A stretch of 43,259 bases of DNA from Occallatibacter sp. (GTDB lineage Bacteria > Acidobacteriota > Terriglobia > Terriglobales > Acidobacteriaceae), in the NCBI GenBank assembly GCA_031296305.1, contig JARLFZ010000024.1, positions 1 to 43,259 on the forward strand, in the 5' to 3' direction. Of this stretch, positions 4,753 to 43,259 are shown in pieces. The position numbers and the translations under genes were made by a program. The notes beneath the pieces were generated by a model. The model did no database searches, was not told the DNA's origin, and saw nothing but the letters and a program-made list of their open reading frames with translations. Positions within the stretch are counted from its first letter, which is position 1. Every line of letters starts with the position of its first letter.

Positions 4753-5256
4753 ATGAGCGAACAACCGCTGGTGGGCGTGGTGATGGGCAGCAAGAGCGAC
4801 TACGAGACGCTCTCGGCGGCCGTGGAAATTCTGCGCGCGTTGGAGATTGCGCACGAAACGCGCATTGTGAGTGCGCACCGCACCCCCGATTGGCTCTTCA
4901 AATACGCCGAGACGGCTCGCGAACGCGGCTTGCGCGCGATTATTGCCGGAGCCGGCGGCGCGGCGCATTTGCCCGGTATGCTGGCGGCGAAAACTCTCGT
5001 GCCGGTGCTGGGAGTGCCGGTAGCTGCGACGCAACTGAACGGACTGGATGCGCTGCTCTCGATTGTGCAGATGCCCAAAGGCGTTCCCGTTGGGACCCTG
5101 GCGATTGGGAAGGCGGGCGCGGCCAACGCCGCGCTGCTGGCCGCAGAGATTCTGGCCGGAACCGACGCTACACTGTACGAGCGCCTGGCCGCGTGGCGCG
5201 CGGCGCGAACGGCAGAAGTGATGGAGCAGACGCTGGGCGAGGAACCGCCGAAGTGA
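4753..5256 (+). CDS. purE: N5-carboxyaminoimidazole ribonucleotide mutase
   Basis: A 167-residue class I PurE. It converts N5-CAIR, made by PurK, to CAIR in purine synthesis in the cytoplasm. Seen directly: the N-terminal [12 protein letters not shown] phosphate-binding loop, the [10 protein letters not shown] motif with the catalytic-region His, the Gly-rich [12 protein letters not shown] loop and [20 protein letters not shown] near the end. Full length for the family. The ATG at 4753 gives the usual N-terminus; an in-frame upstream extension exists but would lie across the promoter. It overlaps purK by four bases (GTGA), so translation is probably coupled. Confidence 0.95.
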
Positions 5257-33856: not shown

Positions 33857-34540
33857 TTACTGTGTATCGCCCGAGCCCGGAGCCGGGGGAGGAGCTGGAG
33901 CCGACTGCGGCGCATCAGCCGGCGGCGGGCCGCCTTGCGGCCGGTGGAACTGTCCACCCGGCCCACCCCGACCGCGGAACTGACCGCCCTCGCCGGGACG
34001 CTGGCCGCCCGGTGCCCATCCGCCACGGCCGTCCTGGCCGTCACCGCGCATGCCCTGGCGCTGCATCCGGTTCATGCGCAGGGTTTCCAACTGCTTCCAC
34101 TGCTCCGGCTTCAACTGCATCCGGATGTCCAGCAGAAAACGTGCATTCGCCTTTTCCAGTTCCGCACGCGCCGCTACGACTTTGTCGATCTGCGCTTCGA
34201 TTGCCCTCTGATCGGGCGAATCGGCCTTCATCATCGGACCCATCTCGACCTCGGCCTTTTCGAGATTGGCCTTAAGGTCGATCAGCTTCATCTTGTGATC
34301 CTGCAGAATGCGGTCCATCGCTTTGCGCTGGTCGTCAGTCAGGTTCAACTGCTGCACCGTGTTCGGATTGTTCCAAAACTGTCCGTTCGCAAACCCGAAC
34401 GCTTGTTCGACGGGGGGCCGATGCTCGGCCATGCCGGGTCCCATCCCTTGCCCGCCCGGCCCCTGCGCGCTGGCCAGACCTCCAGCCATCAGAACTCCCG
34501 CTACCACCAAAGCCAAACGTGCAATTTTCATGGCCTTCAT
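33857..34540 (-). CDS. Periplasmic Spy/CpxP/CnrX-like protein (metal sensor candidate)
   Basis: A 227-residue exported protein. Signal peptide (ARLALVVAGVLMAGGLASAQ), then a helical hairpin with two LTxxQ-type motifs (LNLTDDQRKAMDRI and LKPEQWKQLETL) about 75 residues apart, as in CpxP/Spy and CnrX. Met and His residues cluster at both ends (GMGPGMAEH, EMGPMM, RMNRMQRQGM). The C-terminal 65 residues are Gly/Pro/Gln-rich and probably disordered. GGGAGGAG precedes ATG 34540. It follows the ECF sigma and the membrane anti-sigma candidate, the same set as in CnrYXH metal-response systems. Confidence 0.85.
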   Translation of the reverse strand: MKAMKIARLALVVAGVLMAGGLASAQGPGGQGMGPGMAEHRPPVEQAFGFANGQFWNNPNTVQQLNLTDDQRKAMDRILQDHKMKLIDLKANLEKAEVEMGPMMKADSPDQRAIEAQIDKVVAARAELEKANARFLLDIRMQLKPEQWKQLETLRMNRMQRQGMRGDGQDGRGGWAPGGQRPGEGGQFRGRGGPGGQFHRPQGGPPPADAPQSAPAPPPAPGSGDTQ

Positions 34541-37249: not shown

Positions 37250-38140
37250 ATGCAAGGCGTTACTGACATACTGCCCGCCGCGCAATCGGGAACCATTACT
37301 CTGGGCGGCGACCTGACGGTGAACCGCGTGGGTTTCGGCGCCATGCGCATCACCGGCAAGGGAATCTGGGGCCTTCCTGACGACGTTCCCGGTGCCCTTG
37401 CCACACTGCGCCGCGCCGTGGAGCTCGGCGTCAACTTTATTGACACTGCCGACTCCTACGGCCCCAACGTCTCAGAGGAGTTGATCGCCGAGGCGCTGTG
37501 GCCTTATCCGGCGGGTCTCGTGATCACCACCAAGGCCGGTTGGGTGCGCCACGGTCCGGGGGTCTGGCAGCACAACGCCTCGCCGGCGCATATTGAGGAA
37601 GCTGTCGAAGGCAGCCTGAAACGCCTGCGTCTTGAGCGCATCGACGTGTACCAGCTCCACGTCCCGGACCCCGCCGTCTCCTTCGACGCCTCCATGGAAG
37701 CCCTCGCGCGGCTTCAGCAGCAGGGCAAGATTCGCCACGTCGGTTTGTCCAATGTGACTCTGGAGCACATCCAAAGGGCTAGAAAAATCGTTCCCATCGT
37801 GAGTGTGCAAAACCGCTACAGCTTTTCCGATCGCGAGTGGGATTTCGTGCTCGATTATTGCGCGGCCAACGGCATCGCCTTCCTGCCCTGGGGGCCCATG
37901 GCGCAGGGGCGCAAAGCCAATAATGTGGTGGAAAAGATTGCCGCCGCGCGCCAGGTCTCGACGGCCGTGGTTTCTCTGGCGTGGCTTTTGCACCGTTCGC
38001 CGGTCATTTTGCCCATCCCCGGCACCGGCAATGTGAAGCATCTTGAAGAGAACGTGAGTGCCGCGGGTTTCCGGCTGAGCGATGCGGAGTTTGCCGAGCT
38101 GGCCGCCGTGGCGCCGAAGCCATATTGGCTGCGCGCCTGA
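37250..38140 (+). CDS. Aldo/keto reductase
   Basis: A 296-residue (alpha/beta)8 NADPH-dependent oxidoreductase. The catalytic tetrad is visible: Asp and Tyr in FIDTADSYGP, Lys in VITTKAGW and His in VYQLHVPD. The late cofactor-phosphate strand ILPIPGTGNVKHLEENV is also there. No signal peptide, so it is cytoplasmic, unlike its Tat-exported partner upstream. GGGAG precedes the ATG. Substrate unknown. Confidence 0.93.
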   Translation: MQGVTDILPAAQSGTITLGGDLTVNRVGFGAMRITGKGIWGLPDDVPGALATLRRAVELGVNFIDTADSYGPNVSEELIAEALWPYPAGLVITTKAGWVRHGPGVWQHNASPAHIEEAVEGSLKRLRLERIDVYQLHVPDPAVSFDASMEALARLQQQGKIRHVGLSNVTLEHIQRARKIVPIVSVQNRYSFSDREWDFVLDYCAANGIAFLPWGPMAQGRKANNVVEKIAAARQVSTAVVSLAWLLHRSPVILPIPGTGNVKHLEENVSAAGFRLSDAEFAELAAVAPKPYWLRA

Positions 38141-38167
38141 GTCTGTATCAACCATCGGGAGGCTCCG

Positions 38168-38719
38168 ATGTGGAGAAAGTTCCTGATCACGGCGATGGTC
38201 CTGGTGGGCGCCCTCAGTCCAGCGGCAGCACGCAATAAACACCCGCACTATCTCTTCACTTTACCGGACGGATTCATCGGTTGGATCCAGGTCGTCTTCA
38301 ATGATCCGCAGGCAGCGGAGTTGCCATGGAATGGAGACGGTTGCGACATGAGAATCCCAGAGAGTGGAGTGCTTCGAACCTCGAGTTTGCGCGTTCACCA
38401 TTTCGCGGCGGACGAGTTCTATTACAGGATCTCCGATGCGGACAGGAAGACGAAGCTTCTGCCCGTCCCATCGGGATACGTGCTTTCCGGCGACAGTGAC
38501 GGCGGCTTCGGTGTAATGGATACTGGCGGAAAAGGGAAGGGGTACTCGTGGTTTATCTTTATCGGCCCGCCGGAAATACGTGCCAGAATCCCGCTTGCAG
38601 ACTGGGGCAAAGTCGTTGAAGAATATGCGCGGACCCATAACGGCAGCAAACGGGTCGAAGCGCCGGATGCGTACCCTACGCCCGGGAGAATGGCCCCGCC
38701 AGCTTTACCGGCTCGATAG
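38168..38719 (+). CDS. Exported protein of unknown function (DUF6843-like)
   Basis: A 183-residue protein with a signal peptide (FLITAMVLVGALSPAAA) and one domain (YLFTLPDGFIGWIQVVF, then MRIPESGVLRTSS and GYSWFIFIGPPE). This pattern resembles the small exported domain DUF6843, as I recall it; the match is not certain. GGGAGG lies before the ATG, 27 bases after the aldo/keto reductase stop. It may be the third gene of that transcript. A Pro-rich tail ends the protein. Confidence 0.65.
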   Translation: MWRKFLITAMVLVGALSPAAARNKHPHYLFTLPDGFIGWIQVVFNDPQAAELPWNGDGCDMRIPESGVLRTSSLRVHHFAADEFYYRISDADRKTKLLPVPSGYVLSGDSDGGFGVMDTGGKGKGYSWFIFIGPPEIRARIPLADWGKVVEEYARTHNGSKRVEAPDAYPTPGRMAPPALPAR

Positions 38720-38934
38720 ATTTCCAGGGAATATCAACTAAAGCCCGCACTGGAGCGGAGATTCTATTCGCAGTTTTACCGATGCCTGTGTTGAAGGCGA
38801 ACGCTGCCGGCCTGTCTCCGCTTCCCGCTTCATTACGAAAGTCTCGGAATCATCTAATTCTCCTTCAAGCGGCAGATGCGCGCGCCGATAGCGAAAGTGT
38901 ACTCACACCAACTTGTATCTCTGTGGAAGGTGAT

Positions 38935-40059
38935 ATGCGACTTCGCTTAATTTGTGCATTGCTGGTTCTGGTTGGACTATCCGGTTGCGGAAACCCACTG
39001 GCCTCTACGTCCACCTCGACGTCAACCCCCTCCGTGCAAACACGCACATATAACGGGACAGCATCGGTGGGCGATTTCCTGACCATCACCCTCAATACCA
39101 CCGCGCTGACGATGACTTACAACAACCTCTCCAACGGCGACACTGGCACGTTTCCGTACTCGGTCAACGCCAATGGCAGCTATGCACTCAGCGACCCGAA
39201 TGGAAATCTGCTCTCGGCGTACGAAATTCCGGGGTATGCGCTGCTGATTCAGGCGGCCAAGGCGGGACCAAACCACAACACGCCAGCCGTGATTACGGCG
39301 GTGGAAACCGGCCCGATCTCGTTGAGCACGTTCACTGGCAAAAGCTACAACTACATGCAATTCCGCACTGCAGCGGGCGGGCTGGAAGTGGGTTCTGTGA
39401 CCGTTGGTGCGACATCCGGCACGAACTCCTCGTACTGGCCCTATGGCTCCTTCAACCAGAACTCCGGCGGCGCCTTTAACGGCGGCACACTGGACTTCAG
39501 CCAGATGACGGAGGCCACTTCCGGAACCTATATGTACGAGCCGGATGCGGGCGGCGGAACCGGCGATGACTATGTCTTCGGTACAGCGGGCGGTTTCTTC
39601 ATTGTGGATTCGCCCAACGGGTCGATCATCGGCCTGCCCAAGGCGGCATCTTCGGCCTTCGATCCAACAGTCGCGGGAACCTACAGCGGCATCTTCTACA
39701 CCAAGGCCAATGCGCAGACGGGCGTTAACAATGTGGAGACCGGCAAAGCGTCAACGAGTCAGGCTACGATTGTCGTGACTGCCGCAGCCAACATTACTGT
39801 CACCGATTCATCGGGTAACACGATCATCAATGCCACGCTGACTCCGGTGGCCAATTCCAGCTTCTTATACGGCAGTGCGGGCCAACTGACGGACCCTTGC
39901 AATGGATTGTTCGCCTTCCGTGCGGTGACCGGCACTTACGAGCATGATGTCTTTGTCACCTTCGTGGGCAACTCGGTGGTCTTTGCGAAATTCAACGCCA
40001 ACCTGCCCTGGACGCAGTCCAGCGGTTACAGCTATTGGTACGGAGTGGGATTGAAATAG
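38935..40059 (+). CDS. Lipoprotein of unknown function
   Basis: A 374-residue protein with a lipoprotein signal (LICALLVLVGLSGCGNP; lipobox LSGC) and a Ser/Thr linker. The rest is beta-rich and low in charged residues, with many Gly/Asn/Thr turns (FNQNSGGAFNGGTLDF, AGGGTGDDYVFGTAGG). I do not recognise a family. ATG 38935 follows GAAGG; the frame is open from 38782, but only this start gives a proper signal. A hairpin terminator follows at 40086. Confidence 0.65.
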   Translation: MRLRLICALLVLVGLSGCGNPLASTSTSTSTPSVQTRTYNGTASVGDFLTITLNTTALTMTYNNLSNGDTGTFPYSVNANGSYALSDPNGNLLSAYEIPGYALLIQAAKAGPNHNTPAVITAVETGPISLSTFTGKSYNYMQFRTAAGGLEVGSVTVGATSGTNSSYWPYGSFNQNSGGAFNGGTLDFSQMTEATSGTYMYEPDAGGGTGDDYVFGTAGGFFIVDSPNGSIIGLPKAASSAFDPTVAGTYSGIFYTKANAQTGVNNVETGKASTSQATIVVTAAANITVTDSSGNTIINATLTPVANSSFLYGSAGQLTDPCNGLFAFRAVTGTYEHDVFVTFVGNSVVFAKFNANLPWTQSSGYSYWYGVGLK

Positions 40060-40085
40060 ATAGAGCTTAAGGTTCCAGTCGGCAG

Positions 40086-40128
40086 GCCCGTCCTGCGCCC
40101 GAATGGCGCGGACGGGCTTCGCCATTTT
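40086..40128 (+). terminator. Rho-independent terminator after the lipoprotein gene
   Basis: GCCCGTCC-T-GCGCC (40086-40099), loop CGAAT, GGCGC-GGACGGGC (40105-40117): a 13-pair stem with one bulged T, then TTCGCCATTTTT. Confidence 0.7.
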
Positions 40129-40164
40129 TGCGGGCCACTCAATGCGAGGCTGTGGTTTCTCAGG

Positions 40165-40500
40165 TCAGGGATGAGCTTTGAGATATTCCTGCACCGCCTT
40201 TGTGAGCGGCTCAAGATCGAGAACAATCGTGTCCCAGGCGATTTGAAGATCGATTTGAAAATAGTCGTGGATGGCACGATCGCGGAAACCGGCAATCTCC
40301 TTCCACGGAATGTCAATTGATGCCCGCACCGGCCCCGAGACTCTTTTTGCAAACTCGCCGATGAGTGCTAGTTGCAGGATTACCGCACTCTGTGTTTTTC
40401 GATCTTTCAGGAACGCGGCATTATCCATACCGTCGACAAATTCGCGAATCTTGTCTGCGGCGTCGAGAATCTGCGCGAGATAGACCCGCTCATCCTTCAT
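40165..40500 (-). CDS. hepT: HepT-like RNase toxin (DUF86)
   Basis: A 111-residue helical protein of the HepT/HEPN family. The RX4HXY active-site motif is seen in FRDRAIHDYF (Arg, His, Tyr all present). HepT is an RNase or tRNA-targeting toxin that is held inactive by AMP groups added to its Tyr by MntA. The start ATG 40500 lies inside the last codons of mntA (11-base overlap). A longer open frame upstream was not used because it would run further into mntA. Confidence 0.92.
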   Translation of the reverse strand: MKDERVYLAQILDAADKIREFVDGMDNAAFLKDRKTQSAVILQLALIGEFAKRVSGPVRASIDIPWKEIAGFRDRAIHDYFQIDLQIAWDTIVLDLEPLTKAVQEYLKAHP

Positions 40501-40777
40501 AAATGGTGGCCAGGTCGCGCGCGACATGTGGCTGAATGAACCTGCTCAGGCTTTGCTCTGTGACGACATCGACCTTCCTTCGCAGGGATGTCTCGAGGCT
40601 CTCGACGAGCTTCATATAGGCGACCATCCCGGTCGGACGGCCCAGGCGCACCAGAATGTCCACGTCGCTTCCCGGCCCGTCTTCACCGCGTGCGACGCTT
40701 CCGAACACAGCGGCATAGGTTACGCCGAACTGCGCAAATACAGGAGTCGTCCTGCGCTTGATTTCCTCAATGGTCAT
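40490..40777 (-). CDS. mntA: MntA-like nucleotidyltransferase antitoxin
   Basis: A 95-residue minimal nucleotidyltransferase with the GSX10DXD motif (FGSVARGEDGPGSDVDILV). MntA antitoxins adenylylate HepT. The third active-site Asp is probable in KVDVVTEQ. First gene of the pair, overlapping hepT by 11 bases. A good promoter (see 40784-40812) ends six bases before its ATG, so its mRNA is probably leaderless. Confidence 0.92.
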   Translation of the reverse strand: MTIEEIKRRTTPVFAQFGVTYAAVFGSVARGEDGPGSDVDILVRLGRPTGMVAYMKLVESLETSLRRKVDVVTEQSLSRFIQPHVARDLATIYEG

Positions 40778-40783
40778 GCCTCA

Positions 40784-40812
40784 GTTATACCCCCGCCTCG
40801 TGAAAAATCAAA
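40784..40812 (-). promoter_or_regulatory. Promoter of mntA-hepT, leaderless layout
   Basis: On the minus strand: TTGATT (40812-40807), 17-base spacer, TATAAC (40789-40784), then TGAGGC and ATG 40777. Both boxes and the spacing are good, and only six bases separate the -10 from the start codon. Confidence 0.65.
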
Positions 40813-40878
40813 AATGCGCCGCGCCGCCGAAGGCTCGCCGGCCCCGCACCTGATCCACACCTCGGGCCAACGGGTAGT

Positions 40879-40898
40879 GTCCTAACCCTGCGTTGCTG
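40879..40898 (+). repeat. Left terminal inverted repeat of the IS-like element
   Basis: GTCCTA, three variable bases (ACC), CTGCGTTGCTG. Pairs with 43240-43259. Confidence 0.7.
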
Positions 40899-40976
40899 AC
40901 TCGTTAGAGCAAGAGACTCGCTGACCCTTCCAGTTAGTTAGCAGCAAACCCGCCCACAACCAGAAAAGAGGACCAC

Positions 40977-41567
40977 ATGGAAAGCACCGAACAGAACCAG
41001 AAATTTACCCTTGACAGTTCCTTAAGGAATATGTACCTTACCTTAAGGAAAGAAGGATGTCTGCTTATGGCAATTGAGTTTGAGCACAAAGGCGTAAAGT
41101 ATCGCACGGATTCTGTCCAAGAGGCTGTAAGCCTCCAAGCCGGTCTAACGCAGTACGACTTCGTTGTCGGCTCGCATGGATCAGAGAACACGCCGCGCGT
41201 ATGGACCGCTGATTTAGCAATGGACCTGTTAAACAACATCGGCGAACTGCAAAAGAAATTTCTCGCCGCGTTATCTAACGGGGCCAACCTGAGCAGTAGC
41301 TCTCTGGTAGAAGTGATTGGCGTCGAGTCTGAAATCGCATTGGCAGGAGTGATAAGTGGCCTGTCAAAACAACTCAGAAAAATGTCAGCCAATTCAGCCA
41401 GCCTCTACAGCGTCGAAGTTGTATGGAAGGGAAAAGGGAAGACACGATTTTTCAAGTTGTCTTCCGACTTCCGCGACACGCTCATCGAACTCGGATGGCC
41501 TGAAGCCTGGCAGACAGGAAAGGGAAAAGATGAAACCGCCCCCACCAAAAAGCGGGTCATACTATGA
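40977..41567 (+). CDS. Unknown passenger gene of the IS-like element
   Basis: A 196-residue soluble protein I do not recognise. It is mixed alpha/beta, with VKYRTDSVQEAVSLQAGL, a helical middle (WTADLAMDLLNNIGELQKKF) and a basic end (KDETAPTKKRVIL). Two starts are supported: ATG 40977 with GAGG six bases upstream, and ATG 41067 (MAIEFEHKGVKY) with AGAAGG ten bases upstream. Twin CCTTAAGG palindromes and a TTGACA lie between the two starts, which favours a second, regulated transcript for the shorter form. Lower GC than its surroundings points to transfer. Confidence 0.6.
   Translation: MESTEQNQKFTLDSSLRNMYLTLRKEGCLLMAIEFEHKGVKYRTDSVQEAVSLQAGLTQYDFVVGSHGSENTPRVWTADLAMDLLNNIGELQKKFLAALSNGANLSSSSLVEVIGVESEIALAGVISGLSKQLRKMSANSASLYSVEVVWKGKGKTRFFKLSSDFRDTLIELGWPEAWQTGKGKDETAPTKKRVIL
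41011..41048. promoter_or_regulatory. TTGACA plus twin CCTTAAGG palindromes
   Basis: TTGACA at 41011-41016, then TTCCTTAAGGAA (41018-41029) and a second CCTTAAGG at 41041-41048. The centres are 21 bases apart, two helical turns, so two dimers would bind on one face. The site lies inside the longer reading of the 196-residue gene and just before its second start. Confidence 0.5.
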
Positions 41568-41581
41568 CCACAAATAACGAA

Positions 41582-41611
41582 GCCCTCTAGAGATTCGCGT
41601 CTCTAAAGGGC
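41582..41611. terminator. Hairpin after the passenger gene
   Basis: GCCCTCTAGAGA (41582-41593), loop TTCGCG, TCTCTAAAGGGC (41600-41611), one mismatch. No T tract on the plus strand; on the minus strand it is followed by TTCGTTATTTG. It could act as a terminator, more likely for minus-strand transcription. Confidence 0.45.
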
Positions 41612-41629
41612 CTCAGAAACCACAACCAC

Positions 41630-41674
41630 GGCAAGCCGTAATCGCAGCCTCGCAGCAATGATTATCGGCTTGCC
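41630..41674. repeat. Stem-loop just upstream of the transposase
   Basis: GGCAAGCCGTAATC (41630-41643) pairs with GATTATCGGCTTGCC (41660-41674) with one bulge and a 16-base loop. It ends 26 bases before the transposase ATG, so it could limit readthrough or translation of the transposase. Confidence 0.5.
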
Positions 41675-41700
41675 TTCACCGAAAGGTCAAGGTAAATCCG

Positions 41701-42645
41701 ATGACGTGCCATAACTGCAAGTGCGCCTGTAAACGATTCGGGAAGCACAGGAACGGGTTGCAGCGGTTCCGCTGCCGCCAATGCAAAAAGACATTCACAG
41801 AGGAACACGAAAAACCGCTCGACGAGATGCGGCTGCCGCCGGATCGTGCCGTTGCCGTCCTGCAATTGCTTCTAGAAGGGATGAGCGTACGCAGCATAGA
41901 ACGAGTAACCGACATCCACCGCGATACGATTCTGAAACTGCTTGTACTAGCCGGGGAACGCTGCCAACGGTTAATGCAGGAGCGAATCCAAAACCTCGAT
42001 GTACAAGACGTGCAAGCGGATGAAATTTGGGGCTACGTGTTCAAGAAAGAGGGCCACAAATGGGAGCACGAGAAAGAGACAGAGGGAATCGGAGACGCTT
42101 ATTGCTTCGTGGGGATCGAGCGAGAGACGAAACTGGTACTGGCGTGGCATCTCGGCAAAAGGGACGCGTTAAATACGGACAAATTCGTTTATAAACTGGC
42201 CCTGGCAACCAGCCAGCAAAGGTATCAACTAACCACAGATGGATGGAAGGCTTACGTGCGGGCCGTCGAGATGTTTCTAGGTGGAAGAGTTCACTTCGCG
42301 CAACTGGTCAAAGTGTACGGCGCAAATCGAGAAGGAGAACAACGGTATTCCCCGGCTGAGGTTGTGGATGCTGTCCCATGTATCGTAAGCGGAAACCCGG
42401 ACAGAGAGAAAATTTGCACAAGTCACGTCGAGAGGCAAAACCTCTCGATTCGCATGGGAATGCGTCGCATGACTCGACTCACAAATGGCTTTAGCAAGAA
42501 ATGGGAAAACCTAGAAGCAGCATACGCCGTGTGGTTCGCTTATTACAATTTCTGCCGCAGGCATCAGACTCTGAGAGTCACCCCGGCGATGGAACAGGGA
42601 TTGACGGATCACCAGTGGACAGTAGGCGAGCTGGTGGGAATATGA
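41701..42645 (+). CDS. IS1-family-like transposase, single ORF
   Basis: A 314-residue DDE transposase. N-terminal zinc finger (CHNCKCACKRFG, FRCRQCKKTF), a helix-turn-helix (GMSVRSIERVTDIHRDTIL), then DDE residues: Asp in VQADEIWGYV, Asp in QLTTDGWKAYV and Glu in SHVERQNLSIRM, and the ending YYNFCRRHQTLRVTPAM. This is like single-ORF members of the IS1 family, which lack the usual InsA-InsB frameshift. The ORF is intact, so the element may still move. AAGG lies nine bases before the ATG. Confidence 0.9.
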   Translation: MTCHNCKCACKRFGKHRNGLQRFRCRQCKKTFTEEHEKPLDEMRLPPDRAVAVLQLLLEGMSVRSIERVTDIHRDTILKLLVLAGERCQRLMQERIQNLDVQDVQADEIWGYVFKKEGHKWEHEKETEGIGDAYCFVGIERETKLVLAWHLGKRDALNTDKFVYKLALATSQQRYQLTTDGWKAYVRAVEMFLGGRVHFAQLVKVYGANREGEQRYSPAEVVDAVPCIVSGNPDREKICTSHVERQNLSIRMGMRRMTRLTNGFSKKWENLEAAYAVWFAYYNFCRRHQTLRVTPAMEQGLTDHQWTVGELVGI

Positions 42646-42875
42646 TGGGCAGCACGATGCTTCACTACTATTGGTCAGTTATCTGCAAGACGAAAGGCTG
42701 TGGTACCCGCCATCTGTTGTCGTACATCGGAACCAATTCAACCTTTACGTCTAAGCCTGTGACGATTCAGATTCAATGCCTTGATTGCGGTCAGACTCAT
42801 TTATACCTGGACCGGGAACTGAAACTGTATCCGTCTGGGAGTCCTCCGGTGGAGGGATTTGAACCCAAGTTCTAA
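42642..42875 (+). CDS. Small zinc-ribbon-like protein, overlapping the transposase stop
   Basis: A 77-residue protein starting at ATG 42642 (or 42645), which overlaps the transposase TGA as ATGATGA, so it is translationally coupled. Two Cys pairs, CKTKGC (Cx4C) and CLDCG (CxxC), about 30 residues apart could hold one zinc ion. The C-terminus (SGSPPVEGFEPKF) is encoded by sequence that looks like part of a tRNA T-arm read in antisense, so the last residues may be secondary. Function unknown; a transposition accessory or a simple passenger are both possible. Confidence 0.55.
   Translation: MMGSTMLHYYWSVICKTKGCGTRHLLSYIGTNSTFTSKPVTIQIQCLDCGQTHLYLDRELKLYPSGSPPVEGFEPKF
42847..42875 (-). other. 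tRNA/tmRNA 3'-end-like remnant
   Basis: On the minus strand the sequence reads GGGTTCAAATCCCTCCACC, like a T-arm and acceptor 3' end. Only a 3-pair T stem forms and no matching 5' acceptor half lies upstream, so it is at most a fragment. Confidence 0.35.
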
Positions 42876-42996
42876 CCATCGGTCCCATCGAAATTACACG
42901 ACATCGATTGAAAAGCGTGCGCGATTCAGATTTAGTATGCTCTTGCATTTCGATACACTCCATGCGATGATTCGCTTGGTTACATCGGACCGGAGA

Positions 42997-43025
42997 CCCG
43001 CCCCACGGAGGCGGGCTTTCTATTT
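42997..43025 (+). terminator. Rho-independent terminator within the IS-like element
   Basis: CCCGCC (42997-43002), loop CCACGGA, GGCGGG (43010-43015), then CTTTCTATTT. Confidence 0.65.
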
Positions 43026-43033
43026 GAGGCCCG

Positions 43034-43039
43034 TATACT
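43034..43039 (+). promoter_or_regulatory. -10 box of the last small gene
   Basis: TATACT, 20 bases before GTG 43060; no clear -35. It lies just after a terminator, which fits a separate transcript. Confidence 0.4.
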
Positions 43040-43059
43040 GCCAGTGGGGTGCAAAAACT

Positions 43060-43224
43060 GTGAACGATCCGATGACAGAAGAGCAAGGCCGCAAGATAAT
43101 CGGCCTGTTAGGAGACATCTTGGATGAATTGAAAAAAGTTGCCAAAGATAGCTCATCCATAGAGTCCGAAGTAAAATTTGAACTTCGACGGATTAAAGAG
43201 ACTTTGATGGAATGGAAACACTAA
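43060..43224 (+). CDS. Small coiled-coil protein, unknown
   Basis: A 54-residue, highly charged helical protein (GLLGDILDELKKVAKD, then EVKFELRRIKETLMEW). GTG 43060 follows GGGG; ATG 43072 is the alternative. It has its own terminator and -10 box upstream and ends 15 bases before the right terminal repeat. No family recognised. Confidence 0.5.
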   Translation: MNDPMTEEQGRKIIGLLGDILDELKKVAKDSSSIESEVKFELRRIKETLMEWKH

Positions 43225-43259
43225 AAACCGGATTGATGGCAGCAACGCAGTCATAGGAC

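Follow-up and report, generated by a model that had tools for sequence, protein, structure and literature searches.

An IS1-like transposon with cargo genes and a putative regulator-leader cassette in an Occallatibacter contig

The right end of contig JARLFZ010000024.1 of Occallatibacter sp. (assembly GCA_031296305.1), whose full length of 43,259 nucleotides is called the window here, holds an element that we consider probably to be a cargo-bearing IS1-like transposon under the control of a small predicted regulator, ORF166, and of a leader RNA preceding the transposase gene, in a clade where cargo is the rule. From the sequences alone we could establish its ends, the target duplications of its relatives, an intact DDE transposase, variable cargo, a conserved ORF166 promoter with operators, and leader structure in the relatives. 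A first-pass annotation had described an IS1-like, transporter-type insertion sequence (IS) with three passenger genes, as an exceptional departure from the family. The element itself was borne out, with 47 relatives showing ends and duplications, but the extra genes do not all resemble passengers; the left one, with operators in its own promoter, probably regulates transposition. Nor is the arrangement an oddity, as all 47 defined relatives carry cargo.

We analyzed the element ends by comparison with the closest intact relative. The 20-bp inverted repeat noted earlier at 40879-40898 and 43240-43259 was re-read and confirmed, with 17 of 20 positions matching. The window comprises contig C89 of the source genome G000 (4.1 Mb, 84% complete) in full, and its last base, 43259, lies inside the right repeat; thus, the right end is unreadable past that base. 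The closest intact relative (locus L006), in a 1.25-Mb contig of Acidipila rosea, has a transposase 85% identical to that of the window. Its 2600-bp element has the left end GGTACTGTCCTAACAGCGCGTTGC and the right end GGTAGTGTCCTATTAGCGCGTTGC (reverse complement), and is bounded on both sides by the direct repeat GCACGATC. These ends are of the window's kind, extended to GGTA.TGTCCTA...TAGGACACTACC, with the tips GGTACTGTCCTA and GGTAGTGTCCTA. By analogy with L006, the window element would start at 40873, six bases before the first repeat position noted earlier. Its right end is predicted six bases past the contig end, reading ACTACC, largely in keeping with the extension expected in the first-pass annotation, and its whole length is predicted to be about 2393 bp. 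A search for the right junction in the own genome, as far as this 84% complete assembly reaches, gave three matches, all with three mismatches, against eight for a backward-read control, and thus neither a junction above the control nor a right copy of the target duplication. Judged by this comparison, the repeats form the two termini of a mobile element.

Next, related loci were collected to see how general these ends and the cargo are. Seventeen came from named genomes, and among 397 genomes of the order, 127 (the own genome included) held a transposase relative at E<=1e-40. A script sought end pairs with an 8-9 bp direct repeat in 73 loci, where an inverted repeat of at least 18/24 counted as a pass. 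As a result, 48 passed and 47 were kept, L063 being dropped for its length of 8008 bp and ends of another type; among the 25 that failed, 18 had a lower score and seven lacked any pair, some being cut by contig ends. When flanks were cross-paired among the 48, only 1 of 400 trials passed, and a chance origin of the terminal repeat was excluded. The 47 kept elements have ends that start with GGTAGTG or nearly so, have 47 distinct target sequences, and span 1984-5058 bp. None is a bare transposase gene; because such a transposase needs only about 0.8-0.95 kb, each has about 1-4 kb extra. On these lengths, cargo is the rule among the defined relatives of the window element. Most relatives are acidobacterial, the closest transposases in named genomes being from Acidobacteriaceae, and two were taken from records labelled Fimbriiglobus (L013) and Formivibrio (L017). 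Relatives were also found in 30 of 72,556 plasmid records, some annotated as IS1 family transposase. A chance neighbourhood of four genes with an IS1-like gene, flanked by accidental repeats, would agree with a window copy that shows only 17 of 20 matched bases and ends with its contig. However, ends of the same kind with a target duplication bound L006 and 46 other elements, which contradicts a chance repeat and leaves this explanation highly improbable.

The transposase itself was intact, single-ORF and IS1-like as first described: its frame is open, the catalytic residues D107, D180 and E244 are present, and the IS1 profile matches. These residues are invariant in 22 members, and a four-cysteine zinc-binding N-terminus is near-invariant. 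Pfam DDE_Tnp_IS1 scored 28.4 bits against a cut-off of 24.1, and NCBIfam IS1 96.5 bits, just below its cut-off of 100, whereas NCBIfam IS1595 gave 26 bits against a cut-off of 75, outside that family. All 22 relatives matched the IS1 profile at E<=0.001. The copy might instead be a dead or non-autonomous remnant, fixed in place with decaying genes, as a single full copy in the genome and transposase-less remnants among relatives (L090, L124) could indicate. Yet none of the four frames is interrupted and the catalytic triad is complete, so that we regard a remnant as improbable and continue with an intact, regulated transposon. The coordinates are collected in Table 1.

Table 1. Features of the IS1-like element and its left border in the window.
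Feature	Position	Strand	Basis or remark
Presumed left copy of the target duplication, GGCCAACG, 8 bp	40865-40872	.	by inference from relatives, which have 8-bp duplications
Element, up to the contig end	40873-43259	+	L006 ends with target duplication; GGTAGTGTCCTA placed at 40873
Left terminal inverted repeat	40873-40898	+	sequence
Promoter TTGACA, 17-base spacer, TACCTT, of the proposed ORF166-transposase operon	41011-41039	+
Operator-like palindrome CCTTAAGG within the promoter spacer	41020-41027	+
Second CCTTAAGG, directly downstream of the -10	41041-41048	+	exact in 4/5 (shifted in L091), one mismatch in L090
ORF166, putative autorepressor with a predicted DNA-binding winged helix	41067-41567	+
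Leader hairpin 1	41582-41611	+	five pairs changed on both sides among four ORF166-type leaders
Leader hairpin 2, conserved ATTATC side	41631-41675	+	fold, alignment
Possible alternative hairpin TTGCCTT/AAGGTAA over the ribosome site, competing with hairpin 2	41670-41695	+	7 pairs
Single-frame IS1-like DDE transposase, 314 aa	41701-42645	+	frame, profile matches, alignment
Cargo gene 1, small zinc-ribbon protein	42642-42875	+	start overlaps the transposase stop as ATGA (42642)
Block common to L006, 71% DNA identity	42938-43046	+	contains a terminator-like hairpin at 42997-43015
Cargo gene 2, small protein, coiled-coil by eye, 54 aa	43060-43224	+	open frame; start GTG 43060 or ATG 43072
Right terminal inverted repeat, truncated where the contig stops	43240-43259	-	sequence, L006

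The left gene had been described as a 196-residue protein with its own operator-like sites. The sites are present and lie in its promoter, but the protein probably has 166 residues: although the 196-residue frame is open, its first 30 codons (90 bases) overlie the promoter and operators, and the homologues in L091 and L093 have no start available upstream of MAI. The starts at MAI.F were set by hand in the ORF166 and promoter alignments. In all five aligned sequences, window included, TTGACA, CCTTAAGG and TA...T are invariant. ORF166 and the transposase occur together in three loci (window, L005 and L006), and L090 retains ORF166 and the leader without a transposase. Because the ORF166 stop lies only 14 bases from the leader, the ORF166 promoter most likely also drives the transposase, unless there is a promoter inside ORF166. 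Taken together, ORF166 likely autorepresses an operon that includes the transposase. No ORF166 relative was found by protein in viral contigs, where four contigs had the promoter pattern and none matched ORF166; a sequence search of solved structures gave three matches at E 0.07-0.08, with no regulator among them. A third CCTTAAGG, at window positions 34270-34277 and outside the element, may be a site in the host at which ORF166 acts, or a chance occurrence.

The leader between ORF166 and the transposase was then analyzed by folding and covariation. The window leader forms two strong hairpins with a z-score of -5.07. The leader fold of seven relatives showed changes on both sides in 13 of 33 pairs, and a covariance model derived from these seven found 14 matches across 53 sources, comprising the seven builders, five new ones at transposase starts (L097, L082, L080, L005, L083) and two minus-strand matches at leaders. 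In the 397 genomes the model gave 19 matches; 16 precede a transposase supported by tblastn or Pfam, two precede a start recognised by eye, and one (L116) is in a transposase-less element. Twelve leader sequences, in an alignment fitted to the model and with 7 of the 12 rows having built it, showed both-side changes in 20 of 30 pairs, which none of 500 shuffles equalled. In the leaders of the window, L005, L006 and L090, 6 of 28 pairs had both-side changes, and hairpin 1 accounted for five of these. A phylum sample (order included again) held the leader in 2 of 396 genomes: G002, which was already known, and G524, in which a weak transposase start (32 residues, E 0.001) lies behind it. Rfam gave no match at E<=1 across window positions 38000-43259. 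Hairpin 1 was excluded as a terminator of the transposase transcript because its T-rich tail is on the minus strand.

A further hairpin, over the ribosome site, often abuts the start codon. It has a mean of 8.5 uninterrupted pairs in 20 relatives, compared with 6.1 for cross-paired arms, and none of 2000 permutations reached the observed mean; the count leaves out L126 and three ORF166-type leaders that were displayed alongside. By eye, where examined, the 5' arm of this hairpin shares bases with the 3' arm of hairpin 2, which suggests an open/shut switch.

A mechanism can be proposed from these features. The transposase would cut at the GGTAGTGTCCTA ends and insert everything between them, duplicating 8 bp of the target. 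ORF166 would bind CCTTAAGG in its own promoter and hold down the whole operon. Because hairpin 2 and the ribosome-site hairpin use one common strand, the choice between them would leave the transposase start open or shut, as a second, translational brake. ORF166 and the leader would thereby replace the InsA repressor and the frameshift of IS1. The right-arm genes would be read through from the transposase as true passengers, and the left arm would serve control and the right arm cargo. Several observations weigh against this scheme. The window -10 is weak, and the promoter is missing from the consensus scan list. The TTGCCTT/AAGGTAA hairpin is absent from the minimum-energy fold of the window leader, and while 19 of 20 relatives reach six pairs in the ribosome-site hairpin, 210 of 380 cross pairs do so too. 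Moreover, the window leader is a weak match to the model (41582-41694, 11.8 bits, the best of 11 in the element), and none of the 19 genomes with a leader-model match is the window's own.

The left arm was further compared across the relatives. Relatives with a leader often have P63C, C2 (with a predicted N-terminal winged helix) or ORF166 as their left gene. In another group of 10 loci, a palindrome like ACAGC.AGCGCT.GCTGT lies between the -35 and -10 of the transposase promoter, and the left gene is the small C1. The two kinds were unmixed in 22 typed loci, 13 with a leader (P63C/C2/ORF166) and nine with an operator (C1), giving a Fisher value of 2e-6 that is no true probability because the loci are related. 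The table of these loci was hand-typed, with P63C proteins, which also match the C1 profile via a common N-terminal motif, counted as P63C. It omits leader loci in which no complete left gene was assigned (L012, L073, L080, L082, L083, L097, L126), the P63C leader remnants L120 and L124, the operator locus L064, the window and L006 (leader sub-threshold), and loci with a left gene and, by the two criteria used, neither control (L011, L013, L014, L015, L019, L060, L074, L076, L077, L085), of which L060 has a near copy of the operator by eye. In one protein alignment, the L063 row starts nine residues ahead of the start codon.

The same kind of leader and a P63C gene were also found in L117 and L118, which have an IS1595-type transposase (PF12762) and other ends. 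Both elements (L117 4775-8271 and L118 3793-6712) have perfect ends (24/24) and 8-bp duplications, GGAATTTT and TCTTAATT, respectively. L117 and the IS1-type L059 share 79.6% DNA identity over element bases 37-1331, with no further match. This stretch begins a little inward of the left end and stops 12 bases short of the transposase start, and the P63C proteins are 89.5% identical. In addition, 11 of 11 inspected P63C/C2 left ends, of both transposase families, had a subterminal hairpin, TGGTGGCGGCCT..AGGCCGCC, which was not found in the window, L005 or L006. These comparisons are evidence for a transfer of the cassette across the two transposon families.

These comparisons bear on another explanation, in which ORF166 is one more passenger that regulates its own promoter and takes no part in transposition, and the leader is neutral or insulating. 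ORF166 relatives indeed occur in transposase-free stretches (L090-L094), in one of which (L092) the neighbour is a large gene, primase-like by eye, and left genes of differing kinds (P63C, C2, C1, ORF166) are expected of passengers; both points tell against regulation. In contrast, the kind of left gene tracks the kind of 5' control in the 22 typed loci, no promoter other than that of ORF166 is evident for the transposase, and the P63C-leader cassette is common to transposases of two families. A mere passenger is therefore unlikely, though it is the most serious competitor, and we retain ORF166 as the putative regulator. More tentatively, and leaning slightly to doubt, we propose that an exchangeable cassette of regulator (P63C, C2 or ORF166) and leader is common to the IS1-like and IS1595-like transposons of Acidobacteriota, and that it would regulate whichever transposase follows, replace InsA and frameshifting, and free the right arm for changing, partly defence-like cargo.

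The right arm was examined in the same loci. Both of its genes are as first described: the zinc-ribbon gene overlaps the transposase stop, and the small coiled-coil gene has an open frame, the coiled coil being assigned by eye. Four genes that never travel together would have spoken against the first-pass reading, and this was half the case: ORF166 and the transposase recur in L005 and L006, but the right-hand genes were not found with them elsewhere, in searches of 150 genomes for the zinc ribbon and of the fetched loci only for the coiled coil; nor were the four window genes seen together elsewhere in the searches made. L006 has different small frames in their place, and the L005 contig stops 65 bases past the transposase, with a next frame that begins differently from that of the window. 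These differences occur despite transposase identities of 85% and 89% (L006 and L005). Weak relatives of the zinc-ribbon family were found in 6 of 149 other genomes, several of them as small frames and one near a transposase remnant (L133), and the coiled-coil protein had no family match in profile scans. On this evidence, the right-arm genes are variable cargo.

The cargo of relatives includes, in the 5058-bp element of L018 (2697-7754), a DNA methylase and an HNH-type restriction enzyme, likely a type II restriction-modification system inside an IS1-like element. Other cargo encoded ImmA/IrrE and SocA/Panacea (each 2/25 proteins), P63C, a Clp-type protease, AAA ATPases and thymidylate kinase. 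The Pfam scans covered 79 of 106 cargo frames and one transposase-containing frame, some perhaps not genes; most of these 80 had no Pfam match (the tables name one or two members per family). PADLOC matched RmrA in 2/25 cargo proteins and RmrT in 1/25, and gave no match for the ORF166, zinc-ribbon or coiled-coil proteins of the window. The SocA/Panacea genes had no PADLOC match and so were not the source; the RmrA/RmrT matches would belong to the ImmA/IrrE genes and a neighbour.

Other observations were made in the loci. Some transposase frames of a second subgroup open far upstream (L089 4065-5810; open frames of 590-704 aa), possibly as fusions with an extra N-terminal domain. The contig of L067 (1-3716) starts and stops exactly at both element ends, and is probably a collapsed repeat or a circular form. 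In L090, a 28-base perfect palindrome of two joined element tips (4885-4912), with TACACGTG on each side and adjoining the ORF166-leader remnant, looks like an element that lost its whole inside. L124 (3577-4857) holds a P63C gene and leader with the right element end immediately after and the transposase lost, and L120 is a decayed copy with a P63C gene and leader, the regulator being kept without a transposase in these remnants. A second GGTAGTGTCCTAATTTG-type end in the own genome (C95, 12040; L131) lies between two frames that look membrane-bound by eye, and no transposase match was found in the 3-kb stretch around it. Directly left of the insertion, a HepT-like gene and a nucleotidyltransferase (MNT-like) gene (40165-40777, minus strand) are likely a toxin-antitoxin pair.

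Cargo-carrying insertion sequences are already known, and the clade described here, together with its control cassette, seems to represent a new variant. No description of the clade, the leader or the shared cassette was found in the open literature, a weak negative because ISfinder and most subscription journals were outside the search; the open literature likewise held nothing on ISMhu11 and nothing related, by title, on a P63C domain with a transposase; on passenger genes of the IS1 family in Acidobacteria it gave a review of IS6 alone, and on IS1 cargo genes there nothing. Cargo in every defined member, in some restriction-modification, ImmA/IrrE or SocA-like genes, would blur the line between insertion sequence and transposon. 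If true, a leader-regulator cassette common to two transposase families would be a portable and directly testable control of transposition.

IS1 is a model insertion sequence with a target duplication of about 9 bp, and single-frame relatives of it are known. The window element has the same type of DDE transposase with an N-terminal zinc-binding part, and terminal inverted repeats are likewise present. Duplications of 8-9 bp were seen in the 47 relatives, the right side of the window copy lying beyond the contig. The insA/insB frameshift is not found in the window, which has one frame and no InsA, but a separate, predicted winged-helix gene and a structured leader. ORF166 may or may not resemble ArsR/MarR-type regulators, for which a winged-helix fold and a palindromic operator in the own promoter would be expected; its winged helix is predicted and its CCTTAAGG sites are operator-like. 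Some members of the IS1595 family carry passengers, and the IS1595-like L117 and L118 have a P63C-leader cassette of the kind found in IS1-like relatives, whereas the window transposase falls far below the IS1595 cut-off and the ends differ. Duplications of 8 bp are described for ISApl4 of that family, as in the relatives of the window (PMC12561309). Compared with the 768-bp IS1 of Escherichia coli, the element of 2.4 kb has extra genes, and its 47 relatives reach 1.98-5.06 kb; E. coli IS1 has two brakes, via InsA and the frameshift, and the same principle of negative autoregulation plus translational control is proposed here (PMC12428005). An IS with passenger genes is termed a transporter IS (PMC7986276). 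The window element has ends around a transposase and extra genes, which may or may not be dispensable for transposition, and differs in that cargo occurs in 47 of 47 defined members and that the left arm looks regulatory rather than passive.

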